Below, piece by piece: positions 11,035 through 57,508 of a DNA stretch of 64,000 nucleotides. The stretch covers positions 2,169,001 to 2,233,000 of the forward strand of contig CM077653.1 in NCBI GenBank assembly GCA_039707465.1, in the 5' to 3' direction. The DNA comes from Rhabdophis nuchalis. Taxonomy: Eukaryota > Chordata > Lepidosauria > Squamata > Natricidae. Under the pieces are notes generated by a model. It was given only the letters and a program-made list of their open reading frames with translations, made no database searches and was not told the origin of the DNA. The position numbers and the translations under genes were made by a program. How positions within the stretch are numbered: position 1 is the stretch's first letter; each line of letters opens with the position of its first letter.

Positions 11035-11674
11035 CAGGGGTCCCCAACCTCTGCAACTTTAAGTCTGAAGGACTTCAGCCCCCAGATTTCTCCAGCCAGC
11101 AAAGCTGTCAGTGTCAGGGCCTGGGCCAGGGGTCCCCAACCTTTGCAACTTTAAATCTGAAGGACTTCAGCTCCCAGACTTCTCCAGCCAGCAAAGCTGT
11201 CAGTGTCAGGGCCTGGGCCAGGGGTCCCCAACCTTTGCAACTTTAAGTCTGAAGGACTTCAGCTCCCAGACTTCTCCAGCCAGCAAAGCTGTCAGTGTCA
11301 GGGCCTGGGCCAGGGGTCCCCAACCTTTGCAACTTTAAGTCTGAAGGACTTCAGCTCCCAGACTTCTCCAGCCAGCAAAGCTGTCAGTGTCAGGGCCTGG
11401 GCCAGGGGTCCCCAACCTTTGCAATTTTAAGTCTGAAGGACTTCAGCTCCCAGACTTCTCCAGCCAGCAAAGCTGTCAGTGTCAGGGCCTGGGCCAGGGG
11501 TCCCCAACCTTTGCAACTTTAAGTCTGAAGGACTTCAGCTCCCAGACTTCTCCAGCCAGCAAAGCTGTCAGTGTCAGGGCCTGGGCCAGGGGTCCCCAAC
11601 CCAGCAAAGCTGGCTGGAGAATTCTGGGAGCTGAAGTCCTTCAGACTTAAAGTTGCAAAGGTTGGAGATCCCTG
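11035..11674. mobile_element. hAT-type element with six 92-bp internal repeats
   Basis: Starts CAGGGGTCCCCAACC and ends GGTTGGAGATCCCTG. Flanked by perfect 8-bp duplications TTCTAGTT (11027-11034 and 11675-11682), of the nnnTAnnn pattern reported for Buster-group hAT transposons. Inside, a 92-bp unit with the linker gtgtcagggcctgggccagg recurs about six times. Peptides predicted across it only reflect the tandem repeat. Confidence 0.88.
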
Positions 11675-12267: not shown

Positions 12268-12513
12268 CAGTGTTTCTCAACCTTGGCGACTTAAAGTCCT
12301 GGGGACTTCAACTCCCAGAATCCCCCAGCCAGCACAGCTGGCTGGGGGATTCTGGGAGTTGAAGTCCCCAGGACTTCAAGTCGCCAAGGTTGAGAAACAC
12401 TGTCCCAGGACTTAAAGTCGCCAAGGTTGAGAAACACTGCCCCAGGACTTAAAGTCGCCAAGATTGAGAAACACTGCCCCAGGACTTAAAGTCGCCAAGG
12501 TTGAGAAACACTG
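12268..12513. mobile_element. Palindromic hAT-type element with a terminal repeat copied in tandem
   Basis: Left end CAGTGTTTCTCAACC, centre cagccagcacagctggctg, right end GGTTGAGAAACACTG. Flanks CCCTAGAT and CCCTAGTT agree at 7 of 8. The right terminal 37 bases (ggacttaaagtcgccaaggt and following) are present four times in all, ending at 12402, 12439, 12476 and 12513. Confidence 0.85.
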
Positions 12514-24310: not shown

Positions 24311-25272
24311 GGTAGAAGGTAGTGCATACAAGGAAACCATATAAATACCTGGAGTTTTCTCACAATGTTTTCCAAGCACTTTTACTTTCTCAACTAAGCA
24401 AAGTCCCCAAGAGAGAGAGCTTTGAAGGGGAGATTGAACTAGGATCTCAATGTTTTGTGGCTACATGCTGGTATTGTCATCTGCAAGGATTTATTTTTGA
24501 AGGGGGGTGGGGCAGGGATTCTTCAGAAGAACCACGAGGGCTAGCACGCTTCACTATTGGAAACAGATGCCAGCACCCCCCCCCCCAAATTATCTGGGAG
24601 ACACGTGTGAGGAGGGTGAGCTCTTTGGGAACAGTTCCTACATTCCAAGAATGGCTTTGGTGGGGCTAGCTAGCTCCCTCCTTATTTGTAAGACTTCTCC
24701 TCACAAATGTTCTCCAGATGTTCCTCAAGGCCAAGAGGACATAGCATGTAATTTCAGAAGTGGGCGGGGAGTGTCTCATTTGTCCTCTACCCCAGCACGG
24801 AGGAGACTGTGGGCATCCCTTCTCCTTTGTGGAGCCCACCACGAACCAGCCCGTGAGTTCACTCTGCTTGAATCCTTTTCTTGGCAGATCTGAAAACTCG
24901 GTCTAGGAAATGGCAGGATGAGTCACCCACACGCCTCCCGAGGTTAAATATAAACCCTAATTGGTCCCAGGTTGGATTTTATAGCCATTTCAGCAATCTG
25001 GATGGAGGGATCCTGCCTGAAATAACTCCGGTGGTTGTTTTGCATTTTCCTTCCTGGCTCTGGTTGGCATTGGCTGAAGCCTTTTTGTGACCCACAGAGC
25101 TAAATTCAAAACCTTCTTTTGCAAGCGATGCCTTCGCACCAAATTAAACCGTAATTAGACTTCGTGCGCCTTTGCTGATTGCATCTCTCGCTTGGCCTCC
25201 CGCCCTCAACCCGTTGATTGTTCTCGTACCTGATGAAAAGTTATACATATACATACATATATATATATGTAA
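24311..25272. other. Unassigned sequence
   Basis: No element recognised apart from a short poly-C at about 24579-24587. The frame at 24507-24893 has no domain that I recognise. Confidence 0.4.
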
Positions 25273-25275
25273 TCA

Positions 25276-25440
25276 GGGAAACTGGTTAGCTCAAGGCATA
25301 GAGAAGCCTGCTTCGAATGCTGGAGAGCACCAGTTCAAATCCCTGTAGGGAAGTATGGCCAGCTGACGAGGGCTAAGGAGCCCGAAATGGATCCATCCTG
25401 GTCTCTTAATTAATTATTACTAATCATCCCTTAAAGAAAT
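25276..25440 (+). mobile_element. tRNA-derived SINE containing a complete hammerhead ribozyme
   Basis: The tRNA-like head has an A box TAGCTCAAGG (25287-25296) and a B box AGTTCAAATCC (25332-25342), with spacing normal for Pol III type 2 promoters. The body that follows folds as a hammerhead (25357-25403). The tail is AT-rich (ttaattaattattactaatc). The body is shared with the minus-strand element at 26524-26702, which defines a family. The exact ends are not fixed because no target duplication could be read. Confidence 0.8.
25357..25403 (+). ncRNA. Hammerhead ribozyme, type I, all core bases intact
   Basis: Stem I is GGCCAG (25357-25362) with CTGGTC (25398-25403), six pairs including one G-U. 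The core box is CTGACGA (25363-25369), fitting CUGANGA. Stem II is GGGCT/AGCCC with loop AAGG. Next is GAAA (25384-25387). Stem III lies within ATGGATCCAT (25387-25396), three or four pairs. The cleavage triplet is ATC, with cleavage expected after C25397. Every conserved hammerhead core base is present, so self-cleavage of the SINE transcript is plausible; activity is inferred. Confidence 0.85.
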
Positions 25441-25583
25441 TTAACACATATCTAAAAAAACAGCAGCCATTTAATAGGTCTCTGTCTGGATGGTCTCTAG
25501 GTTGAGTCGAAGGACAGAGAAGGATGACAAGTTTGTCTCCTCCCTTAAATAGGCCTAACAGGAAGCTGTAACAATATATCCAC

Positions 25584-25585
<2 letters not shown>
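25441..25585. other. Unassigned sequence
   Basis: Short spacer without recognised features. Confidence 0.4.

Positions 25586-25647
<62 letters not shown>
25586..25647. repeat. (AT)n microsatellite
   Basis: About 30 perfect AT units. Confidence 0.97.
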
Positions 25648-26523: not shown

Positions 26524-26702
26524 TTATGTGTGTGTGTGTGTTACGTTTTTGAGCTGATCAATAAATAAGTCAGGGAGACTAGGATAGATCTATTTCGAGC
26601 TTTTTAGCTCTTATCAGCTAGTCATACCCTTACTGGGATTTGAACCAGGGCTGTATTACATGTTAGGCAAAGCCTTAGCCACTTAAGCCACCAGGTTCTC
26701 TT
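26524..26702 (-). mobile_element. tRNA-derived SINE with mutated hammerhead, minus strand
   Basis: Read on the minus strand it has an A box (TGGCTTAAGTGG), a B box (GGTTCAAATCC), then the hammerhead-bearing body and a tail holding (AC)n. It shares the body with 25276-25440 but differs at many positions, so the two are not recent duplicates. Confidence 0.8.
26577..26623 (-). ncRNA. Hammerhead ribozyme fold with core base G8 changed to A
   Basis: On the minus strand: stem I GACTAG/CTAGTC (six Watson-Crick pairs), core CTGATAA, stem II GAGCT/AGCTC with loop AAAA, GAAA, stem III within ATAGATCTAT, cleavage triplet ATC. The box should read CUGANGA, and here the G is A. Since G8 takes part in catalysis in known hammerheads, this copy is predicted inactive or much weakened. 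All helices are kept through paired changes relative to the other copy. Confidence 0.8.
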
Positions 26703-27690
26703 CCTGATCAGCTGAGACAGGAGGATAAGTGTTGTGGCACAAGTGTGTATGTATGTATGTATGTAATACATTGTATTATGGAAGTGGCATTCCTTGCAGC
26801 ATTTTGGGGGTTAAGGGGAGGAATTCTCCTACTACCTAACAGATTTGCAAAACCTTTGTAGCATCAGAACTCGGTGGTAGACCTCAGCCATTATGTCAAG
26901 GGCTAAGCTAGTCACAGATAGACTGAGAACATTTATTACGACGCAATTGCTAAAATAAGATGCTGTTCATTTGTCGGTATCTCCCTTACATACTGTTTGG
27001 TAACAAAACAAATACAATCTTATTAAGCTTGTCTGCTTGGATAAAACTTCCAAAGGGCCTGGACAGCTTCTGGCTTGCACAGCGGTCTGTAATCCAACAC
27101 CTAAAAATATCCCAGCAGCTAATGTCTATAGCAGCTATTCATTCTTTTGGAAACTTCTGGGATGGGGTGGGCAGTTGTGACCTGTGGAATTTCCAGAATT
27201 CCTGAACCAGCCTTGGAATTCTGGGATTTGAAGTCTACACGTCATACAGGGGCCATAGTTGTCCTCCCCGGCTCTAGGAGATGACACTGCACTCCTGAAA
27301 GCCAATACATCTCAACCCCAAAGCCATCCTAAACCGATGTCACACCATTTGCCTGTCCCAGCTGATGAGTTGCTCCAAGCGCACGATTCACGGCCCCGAG
27401 AAACTCACAATTCTAATCCGTAAAATGAAATATTAGACTGAGCCGTGCGGGTGCAATACCCAGCGGCAGGATCTGGTCCGCACCCAGATTCTGCCCCAGG
27501 GGAATAAAGCATGCAAATTTGACATGCGTGTAGAAACAGGGCTTATTTGCATAACGGATCGGGCGTTGGCACAAAACTGGAATGGTTTTGGCAGAAAATG
27601 CTGTGTGGTTTGAACAGAGAATAGAAGAGCTGGCGCTGAATGAAGGGAAGGAGGCGGTCTTCCTTGACGTCCAAAATATTGGAGCAGGGG
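26703..27690. other. Unassigned sequence with a degenerate hAT-like palindrome
   Basis: Near 27180-27250, gacctgtggaatttccagaa and ttggaattctgggatttgaa recall the hAT-type palindromes but are strongly diverged. A short (GTAT)n lies at about 26746. An octamer-like atttgcat occurs near 27544. No gene recognised. Confidence 0.35.
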
Positions 27691-45507: not shown

Positions 45508-47155
45508 ATTAAATTTATACCCCGCCCTTCTCCAAACGGACCCAGGGCGGCGCACAGGGATGTTAAAACACATATAAAACATATAAAAATTTTAAAAACT
45601 TATTCTAATAGACCCTGCGCTAAAAACCGAATTTAAAAAACCCAAATTTAAAACTATCTAAGAGTCAGTAATGGGGGTTATGCTAGGCCGGCTAGATGGA
45701 ATAGGTGTGTCTTCAGACACTTGCGGAAGAGGCGGAGGTCAGAGATGGTGCGGAGTTCAGGGGGTAGGTCGTTCCAAAGGGCAGGGCCCGCCACAGAGAA
45801 GGCTCTTCCCCTGGGTGTCGCCAGTCGGCATTGTCCAGCCGACGGCACCCTGAGGAGGCCCTCTCTGTGGGAGCATATCGGTCTGAGGGATGTATGGGGC
45901 AGGAGGCGGTCTCGCATATAACTAGGCCCCGAGCCATGGAGCGCTTTAAAGATGGTCGTTAAAACCTTGAAGCGCACCCGAAAGACCACAGGGAGCCAGT
46001 GCAGCTCGCGCAGGATAGGTGTTATGTGGGAGTGTCTAGGCGCTCCCGTAATCACCCGCGCGGCTGCGTTCTGGACTAGCTGCAGCTTTCGGGTGCACCT
46101 CAAGGGGAGCCCCATGTAGAGAGCATTACAGTAGTCAAGTCGAGAGGTGACGAGTGCTTGAGTGACTGTGCGTAAGGCACCCCGGTCCAGTAAGGGGCGC
46201 AATTGGCACATCAGGCGTACCTGATGGAATGCCCCCCTGGCCACGGCTGCCACATGATCTTCCATAGATAGCCGGGAATCCAGGAGGACACCCAAATTGC
46301 GTGCCCTCTCCACGGGGGCCAGTGTTTCGCCCCCAATGGCCAGAGTTGGAATAATCTGGCTGAACCGGGGCGCCGGAAGCCACAGCCACTCAGTCTTGGA
46401 CGGGTTGAGCCTGAGTTTGTTACCACCCATCCAGATCCGTACGGCCTCCAAACACCGGGACATAACCTCGACGGCATCGTTGGGGTGGTCTGGGGTGGAT
46501 ATGTACAACTGAGTATCATCAGCGTACAGATGATATCCCACCCCAAAACCACGGATGATCTCACCCAGCGGCTTCATATATGTGTTGAACAGTAAGGGCG
46601 AGAGGACCGACCCCTGAGGAACCCCACATATGAGGGACCTCGAGGCCGACCTCTGCCCCCCTGTCAACACATATTGCGACCGACCAGAGAGGTAGGATGA
46701 GAACCACCGCAGAACGGTGCCTCCCAACCCCAACCTCCCCAGTCGGTGCAATAGGATACCATGGTCGATGGTATCAAAAGCCGCTGAGAGGTCTAATAGG
46801 ACTAGGATAGAGGAATATCCTCTATCCCGCGCCCTCCAGAGATCATCAACCAACGCGACCAATGCCGTCTCGGTGCTGTGCCCGGGTCGGAAGCCGGACT
46901 GGCGCGGGTCTAGATAATCAACTTCCTCCAAGTGTCGCGGAAACTGTTGGGCCACCACACTCTCAACAACCTTCACTAAAAAGTGGAGGTTGGAGACGGG
47001 ACGATAGTTCTCTAATAATGCTGGATCCAGGGACGGCTTCTTGAGGAGGGGCCTCACCACCGCCTCTTTCAGGATGGGTTGTGCGCGAAAGGAAAGAGAT
47101 TTTGACAGGCTACGAAGCCCGTCTCCACGCTGAACGGCAATCAACAAATTAAAAG
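45468..47155 (-). mobile_element. L2-clade LINE, 1.7 kb, 5' truncated
   Basis: The longest transposon copy here. On the minus strand: reverse transcriptase and C-terminal region, then a 3' UTR with ctgtgcgccgccctgggtcc in inverted form near 45536-45555, and a TTTA-rich tail at 45473-45510. The upstream endonuclease part is absent. About eight shorter copies of the same 3' end lie elsewhere in the window. Confidence 0.93.
45678..47147 (-). CDS. L2-type ORF2 protein, C-terminal 489 residues (reverse transcriptase)
   Basis: Uninterrupted frame of 489 codons; the first Met is not the native start, because the frame is the truncated remainder of a longer ORF2. Reverse transcriptase landmarks in order: NYRPVSNL (residues 47-54), LDLSAAFDTIDH with the first catalytic Asp (118-129), GVPQGSVLSPLLFN (175-188), and the YADD box (208-211). 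A thumb-like region and the family C-terminus ending HLAGLA follow. In the complete element this enzyme nicks DNA and copies its own RNA at the target site. Here the endonuclease is missing, so the copy cannot move by itself. The intact frame suggests a recent insertion. Confidence 0.9.
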   Translation of the reverse strand: MLIAVQRGDGLRSLSKSLSFRAQPILKEAVVRPLLKKPSLDPALLENYRPVSNLHFLVKVVESVVAQQFPRHLEEVDYLDPRQSGFRPGHSTETALVALVDDLWRARDRGYSSILVLLDLSAAFDTIDHGILLHRLGRLGLGGTVLRWFSSYLSGRSQYVLTGGQRSASRSLICGVPQGSVLSPLLFNTYMKPLGEIIRGFGVGYHLYADDTQLYISTPDHPNDAVEVMSRCLEAVRIWMGGNKLRLNPSKTEWLWLPAPRFSQIIPTLAIGGETLAPVERARNLGVLLDSRLSMEDHVAAVARGAFHQVRLMCQLRPLLDRGALRTVTQALVTSRLDYCNALYMGLPLRCTRKLQLVQNAAARVITGAPRHSHITPILRELHWLPVVFRVRFKVLTTIFKALHGSGPSYMRDRLLPHTSLRPICSHREGLLRVPSAGQCRLATPRGRAFSVAGPALWNDLPPELRTISDLRLFRKCLKTHLFHLAGLA

Positions 47156-47394
47156 GCCGCCATTGATTGAGGCTTCAGCTGCTTTCTGCTCGAGAGACGG
47201 GGCTGGTCGGTGTTGTACGAAGGAGGGCAAACAAACCCTTGTTAAGCCTTCCTTGGGAGGCCCAACCCTGCCATGTTTTTTTGGGGGGGGGGGAATACGC
47301 ACGCTTGCTCTGCAGATTGCGAAGGAGAACAAAAATAAAAAGATCTCGGATTAGCAACAGGGTGGATGTTTTTTTCCCAAGGTCCAAAAAGAAT
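47156..47394. other. Unassigned sequence
   Basis: Contains a short poly-G (47284-47293). Nothing else recognised. Confidence 0.35.
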
Positions 47395-50452: not shown

Positions 50453-50771
50453 CAGGGGTCTCCAACCTTTGCAACTTTAAGTCTGAAGGACTTCAGCTCC
50501 CAGACTTCTCCAGCCAGCAAAGCTGGCTGGAGAAGTCTGGGAACTGAAGTCCTTCAGACTTAAAGTTGCAAAGGTTGGGGACCCCTGGCCCAGGCCCTGA
50601 CACTGACAGCTTTGCTGGCTGGAGAAGTCTGGGAGCTGAAGTCCTTCAGACTTAAAGTTGCAAAGGTTGGGGACCCCTGGCCCAGGCCCTGACACTGACA
50701 GCTTTGCTGGCTGGAGAAGTCTGGGAGCTGAAGTCCTTCAGACTTAAAGTTGCAAAGGTTGGGGACCTCTG
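50453..50771. mobile_element. hAT-type element with 92-bp repeats, second copy
   Basis: Starts CAGGGGTCTCCAACC, ends GGTTGGGGACCTCTG, flanked by perfect TGCTAGAG duplications (50445-50452 and 50772-50779). It carries the same 92-bp unit and linker as 11035-11674 in inverted orientation, with about two extra units after a normal palindromic half. Confidence 0.88.
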
Positions 50772-57373: not shown

Positions 57374-57508
57374 CAGGGGTCTCCAACCTTTGCAACTTGA
57401 AGTCTGAAGGACTTCAGCTCCCAGACTTCTCCAGCCAGCTTTGCTGGCTGGAGAAGTCTGGGAGCTGAAGTCCTTCAGACTTCAAGTTGCAAAGGTTGGA
57501 GACCCCTG
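57374..57508. mobile_element. hAT-type palindromic element, complete 135-bp copy
   Basis: Near-perfect palindrome from CAGGGGTCTCCAACC to GGTTGGAGACCCCTG about the centre cagccagctttgctggctgg. Flanked by perfect GTTTAGAA duplications (57366-57373 and 57509-57516). Serves as the reference for the decorated copies at 11035, 31090 and 50453. Confidence 0.92.

Follow-up and report, generated by a model that had tools for sequence, protein, structure and literature searches.

Animal retrozymes combine type I hammerhead ribozymes with tandem units of ∼300 bp and a GC content below 45%, and they produce circular RNA (PMC7229834). According to a review, retrozymes seem to be promoterless and might be classed as SINEs of a new type (PMC7761336). 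In the axolotl, retrozyme monomers cut poorly and dimers better, and the RNA was closed by RtcB in vitro (PMC7229834). The hammerheads of humans and other mammals are described as isolated motifs that are not arranged in tandem and from which circular RNA is not expected (PMC7229834). The hammerheads in the RECK and C10 introns resemble those of Xenopus repeats (Perreault and colleagues, PMC3088659), and another review holds that retroelement hammerheads seem to have been domesticated in amniotes (PMC6155905). The words lizard, Anolis and reptile are absent from PMC3088659, and none of the papers among the literature matches listed (main texts, mostly open access) reports a reptile retrozyme or a reptile SINE with a hammerhead. 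The repeat may already have been catalogued, with or without its ribozyme.

The present work follows up an earlier note on a stretch of 64,000 nucleotides from the snake Rhabdophis nuchalis (hereafter the window), which had described a tRNA-derived SINE with a complete hammerhead that would cut the SINE RNA. We think it fairly probable that the window contains two copies of a retrozyme-like element, a retroelement that is non-autonomous, has units of ∼341–346 nt and works in the manner of animal retrozymes.

The two hammerheads of the window

Copy 1 carries a complete type I hammerhead, read from the window sequence at 25351–25407 on the forward strand, with a predicted cut after C25397 (Table 1). 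It has the attributes of the class, namely the CUGANGA, GAAA and NUH core and three helices, open at stem I, and all the features that the earlier note had named stand in their places, as judged from the sequence and from a descriptor that requires the core together with a minimum of four, four and three pairs in stems I, II and III. Searched on both strands, this descriptor matched the window once (copy 1, + strand) and 200 simulated first-order Markov windows not at all, which, together with the pairing statistics of the family alignment (see below), ruled out a chance motif. By its anatomy in the sequence, copy 1 can thus be taken as confirmed to be a genuine type I hammerhead, with self-cleavage predicted after C17.

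Table 1. Features of the element in the window (positions are those of the window).
Feature	Positions	Strand	Basis or remark
Element copy 1 (subfamily B), almost a full unit	25267-25588	+	97.8% identity over 322 bp to the 346-bp unit of locus L025; unit B 333 through 308
Possible A box	25287-25297	+	A-box matches in the family near chance
B box AGTTCAAATCC in the head	25332-25342	+	2 mismatches to GGTTCGANTCC
Outer stem I AAG/CTT, internal loop TAT/T	25351-25353 with 25405-25407	+	three extra pairs beyond the loop
Inner stem I GGCCAG/CTGGTC	copy 1	+	six pairs, one of them G-U
Core CTGACGA	25363-25369	+	sequence
Stem II GGGCT/AGCCC, loop AAGG	copy 1	+	sequence
Core GAAA	25384-25387	+	sequence
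Stem III palindrome ATGGATCCAT	25387-25396	+	may pair with a second hammerhead (two-strand fold)
C17, predicted cleavage base	25397	+	sequence
Remaining 3' section of the unit, ∼180 nt	25408-25588	+	alignment to the L025 unit
Element copy 2 (subfamily A)	26535-26721	-	81.9% identity to a subfamily-A unit; unit 316 through 165
Copy 2 hammerhead, with A in place of G8 in its core (CTGATAA)	26573-26629	-	Rfam restricted scan, relaxed descriptor, comparison with copy 1

Comparison with the Rfam covariance models, a check proposed at the outset, gave a divided answer. A window-wide scan at E≤1 reported no hammerhead, so that restricted scans were needed; these did match the hammerhead model RF02275 (HH9), yet copy 1 scored 25.2 bits and copy 2 scored 30.6 bits, against a gathering score of 52. 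The same model gave 27.6–35.5 bits in the family loci, and the top score of Hammerhead_1 was 31.8 bits (gathering score 34), so no Rfam match in the window copies or the family loci reached its gathering score.

Copy 2 was picked up by nhmmer over 26553–26700 (−), head included, and its hammerhead was also caught by the descriptor once G8 was allowed to be A. As its core lacks G8, this copy has probably lost activity. The two hammerheads differ at 15 of 57 positions, 11 of these in stems, and all 17 pairs are intact nevertheless, with both bases changed in five of them and a single base in a sixth. When the same substitutions were placed at random, a result with no broken pair and five two-sided pairs arose in a fraction of 0.00004 of 200,000 trials, an optimistic value since both copies had guided the drawing of the structure (its outer stem).

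Of the proposed tRNA-derived head, the B box is what held up. In copy 1 it ends 14 bases ahead of stem I, and a B box with at most two mismatches lies just upstream of the hammerhead in 49/64 family copies (29/38 of the unselected ones), as compared to 0.6% of random 40-mers from the window. A tRNA origin found no further backing: A-box matches occur in 46/64 copies vs ∼60% of random 60-mers, ARAGORN detected no tRNA in the window, and an Rfam tRNA match at E≤10 was found neither in the two window heads nor in that of locus L036, bearing in mind that old heads can lose their fold. A lack of TTTT, considered as a sign of Pol III read-through, was not significant. We therefore regard a B-box head as supported and its derivation from a tRNA as possible.

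Abundance, repeat unit and proposed mode of spread

The assembly from which the window was taken (1.918 Gb, 348 contigs) was searched with a 31-place motif pattern, which at no more than one mismatch gave 22,399 matches (11,241 on the + and 11,158 on the − strand), while the reversed pattern gave none. A pattern of the B box plus linker matched 5,404 times on the + and 5,249 times on the − strand (at most two mismatches; control, 0). The earlier note was right in placing the type I hammerhead downstream of a Pol III-type B box in a dispersed repeat. Loci for closer study were chosen by pattern from the first 12.2 Mb of a single contig (C1), and a family profile run over 20 fixed-step 10-kb stretches of contigs C1–C8 returned seven matches, within 2/20 stretches.

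The repeat is larger than the short head-plus-hammerhead SINE originally envisaged: since copy 1 aligns to the L025 unit over its entire span, the element extends ∼180 bases past the hammerhead, and the unit measures ∼341–346 bp rather than ∼130 nt and is often found in tandem. Locus L025 has five consecutive forward copies at a spacing of 346 bp and L027 three at 344 bp; from the fixed-step stretches, L052 shows three units 346 bp apart and L047 two same-strand hammerheads 348 bp apart. Units of subfamily A (∼341 bp) and subfamily B (∼346 bp) can be aligned over their whole length, and the unit has a GC content of 0.41–0.42. Its 3' part includes a second conserved hairpin (25479–25520 in the window; TCTCTGTC with GACAGAGA in copy 1), which by eye is apparently kept in subfamily A with changed pairs. 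TAATCA and TGATCAG, guessed from the window copies to be target-site duplications, were dropped as the same bases are present in family loci.

How single insertions relate to this unit was read from a census of 76 segments, 58 of which were kept after omission of overlapping or duplicate loci (11) and of segments shorter than 100 nt or lying at locus edges. Sixteen of the 58 are longer than 345 nt (three of these by 6 nt or less) and eight shorter ones cross a unit junction, together 24/58, a number to which DNA-level duplication may have contributed. Right ends cluster at unit positions 161–180 (21) and 261–320 (30), left ends are scattered, and no right end of the 58 segments falls within unit positions 101–140, around the cleavage position 117. 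This lack of insertion ends at the cleavage site fits circles or uncut multimers as the template, and not cut linear RNA.

In the reading that we favour, the retrozyme-like element is composed of a head bearing the Pol III-type B box, the type I hammerhead and the 3' part. Transcripts spanning at least two units, whether made from the internal promoter or by read-through, would contain several hammerheads, which could join in pairs via their palindromic stem III and cut after C17. The unit-length RNAs might then be ligated into circles (by RtcB in known cases), and a LINE may reverse-transcribe circles or uncut multimers from preferred 3' sites, giving tandem, junction-spanning and 5'-truncated insertions. 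Among the outcomes named in the earlier note (processing, circle formation, regulated cleavage), it is circle formation that the anatomy of the unit favours.

Alternatively, the repeat could be an ordinary SINE, a linear Pol III transcript spread by a LINE, whose hammerhead is active now or was so once and cuts incidentally or for regulation, and whose tandem rows stem from satellite amplification and segmental duplication. Clustered right ends with scattered left ends are indeed what LINE-primed copies look like, and SINE-derived satellites are common in squamates (PMC10702118). Besides, two duplications of more than 3 kb that contain clusters of units (L026/L029, 98.4% identical; L028/L030, 99.8%) show that duplication at the DNA level accounts for some of the tandem structure. 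However, the unit length recurs at separate loci, with 7/17 close same-strand neighbours (<900 bp apart; listed motif and B-box-plus-linker matches) spaced 335–346 bp, and the eight junction-crossing segments are single insertions. The units of squamate SINE satellites, moreover, are always shorter than the SINE in that study (PMC10702118). Taken together, we consider the ordinary SINE rather unlikely.

Other repeats and arrangements were observed alongside. Inverted hammerhead pairs are frequent (L014, L016, L021, L039, L041, L043), some with starts about 75–110 bp apart, and their RNA could fold back on itself. An open frame of 498 aa in the window (45678–47174, −) encodes a LINE reverse transcriptase, which we take to be CR1-like; its best counterparts among the matches listed come from Erythrolamprus reginae (73%), the lizard Salvator merianae (72%) and the snake Naja naja (75%), with further snakes and lizards next in line, which would by itself point to a squamate host, probably a snake. 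Strong palindromic hairpins of the window at 11521–11648, 12294–12376, 50479–50561 and 57400–57482 gave matches to mir-5408, mir-3160 and others on both strands, below the gathering scores, and are probably repeat palindromes.

Conservation and pairing across the family

From 96 family matches, 65 copies that span the hammerhead were obtained (26 pattern-chosen, 39 unselected; duplicate loci L029 and L030 omitted), and 63 of these, leaving out two gapped copies, form an alignment with 39 distinct rows. The earlier note had made its proposal depend on conservation of the core and helices among copies, and both turned out to be conserved. An intact core is present in 29 of the 39 unselected copies, and 23 have in addition all pairs of inner stem I and of stems II and III. 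In the alignment, 97.2% of 702 pair cells are paired vs 91.8% in shuffles (0/500 as high), and two-sided changes occur at 7/18 pairs (4.2 in shuffles; 6/500 as high), both comparisons being made with shuffles that ignore relatedness. The 25 distinct unselected rows by themselves gave 96.4% vs 90.7% (0/2000 shuffles, relatedness again ignored). Partners slid out of register pair in at most 52.9%, and the number of pair types was not above that of the shuffles (19 vs 19.4). What counts as independent events are the few subfamilies from which the rows derive.

These subfamilies matter for the view that the hammerhead is a relic, an ancestral ribozyme which no longer has any importance and which is conserved through nothing more than common descent and recent spread. 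A few subfamilies do lie behind many copies, 10/39 unselected copies have lost the core, and array copies are about 99% alike. Yet compensatory changes distinguish the subfamilies in all three stems: stem I reads CCAG/CTGG, CTAG/CTAG or CCAA/TTGG, stem II GAGCT/AGCTC, GGGCT/AGCCC or AGGCT/AGCCT, and stem III TAGATCTA or TGGATCCA. The relic view is also at odds with the identities among 27 dereplicated unselected copies, where the core (0.916) exceeds both head (0.709) and tail (0.828); stems (0.794) are no more conserved than loops (0.804), which covarying stems need not be. A mere relic thus seems improbable to us.

Folding calculations bear on how the hammerhead might act. For 73 nt of copy 1, the lowest-energy fold differs from the hammerhead and 113/200 shuffles are equally good, and for 57 nt the minimum fold contains stems I and II without stem III (−15.0 vs −13.5 or −14.5 kcal/mol). 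The fold of copy 2 beats shuffled sequences (3/200 as good), and its centroid includes stems I and II. Both main forms of stem III are palindromic, and the GATC centre is retained in 37/39 unselected copies, loop II occurring in five forms. When two strands were folded together, the computed minimum was a double hammerhead for copy 2 and for a subfamily-A copy, whereas that of copy 1 lay 2 kcal/mol above the dimer minimum.

Since the centre of the 10-nt palindrome would be a free loop in a hairpin and paired between two hammerheads, cutting by a lone copy appears doubtful on these models. C25397 remains the predicted site; it is the self-cutting of a single SINE RNA, as proposed in the earlier note, that is in doubt. 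With its palindrome, stem III lends itself to hammerheads that cut in pairs, and tandem transcripts should therefore be cut more than single copies. By analogy to the axolotl, single insertions such as copy 1 would leave most of their RNA whole, which would resolve the puzzle of a SINE that loses the 3' tail needed for its retrotransposition, and tandem units would give rise to unit-length RNA and circles. Judged by the motif itself, it is very improbable that a non-autonomous derivative has brought along the hammerhead of a Penelope-like element. Pseudo-LTRs of these elements do contain minimal type I hammerheads in tandem, which possibly work as dimers, but they are described as devoid of helix III or of the loop–loop contacts (PMC7761336), in contrast to the four-pair palindromic stem III with its compensatory pair in the snake.

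Relation to described hammerhead elements

If the retrozyme-like reading is correct, dimer-dependent cutting would spare the RNA of single insertions while tandem insertions would yield circles. The statements that hammerheads of humans and mammals are isolated motifs (PMC7229834) and that retrozymes seem to lack promoters (PMC7761336) are both touched by a reptile family in which more than 20,000 matches to the motif go together with tandem units and a head carrying a B box. Such a family would also make several questions testable in an amniote, i.e. whether ribozymes make circular RNAs, whether circles serve as templates for retrotransposition and whether intron hammerheads descend from repeats.

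The family pattern had no matches in IMG/VR viral contigs, nor in a collection of prokaryote genome contigs, where an absence says little. With a looser pattern, 13 IMG/VR contigs (L001–L013) displayed hammerhead-like sequences of the form AGCTGATGAG..CTAA..AG..CGAAA, several of them shortly before an apparent gene start. These sequences have the same core and loop words as the snake motif, but scored 24–32 bits with the family model R1, compared to 78–88 bits for the eight complete copies of the window and the random stretches, from which R1 was built. Read by eye, they look like phage hammerheads in a different setting, and they were set aside as unrelated.

SMalpha of Schistosoma mansoni has a Pol III promoter. 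It resembles the snake element in being a SINE-like retrotransposon that carries a type I hammerhead (PMC8490949), although host and sequence differ and the two were likened by description, not letter by letter. The squamate SINEs Squam1–Squam3 share with the snake element, again by description, many copies and tandem derivatives, and their tRNA-type head may have a counterpart in its B-box head (PMC7983390, PMC10702118). Squam3, in turn, has a CORE domain and an L2 tail, neither of which was noticed in the snake element, a comparison made by description and not with the consensus sequence; the text of PMC10702118 contains neither 'ribozyme' nor 'hammerhead'.

HH9, the RECK intron hammerhead, is the best Rfam match of the snake motif, though always below 52 bits, and occupies a fixed intron site, whereas the snake motif forms a dispersed repeat. 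A more far-reaching version of our reading would be a promoter-bearing snake retrozyme, driven by its B box, self-cleaving, spreading via RNA circles, present as more than 20,000 motifs and of the same stock as the amniote intron hammerheads of the HH9 type; we put this forward as a tentative possibility, which we would not yet expect to hold in full.

The closest parallels are the axolotl retrozymes Rtz331 and Rtz353 (about 330 and 350 bp; PMC7229834, PMC7761336), which the snake unit resembles in its type I hammerhead, its tandem organization, dimers and upwards, on a scale of ∼300 bp and its GC content below 45%, and a weak stem III is common to the snake element and the amphibian retrozymes. 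The arrays of 346, 346 and 344 bp likewise lie within the range given for retrozymes, i.e. tandem units of about 170–400 bp with a type I hammerhead and less than 45% GC. Metazoan retrozymes seem promoterless according to the review (PMC7761336), whereas the snake element has a B-box head, an amniote host and many dispersed copies. It is best read as extending the known kind of retrozyme to a squamate host and to a head with a B box.
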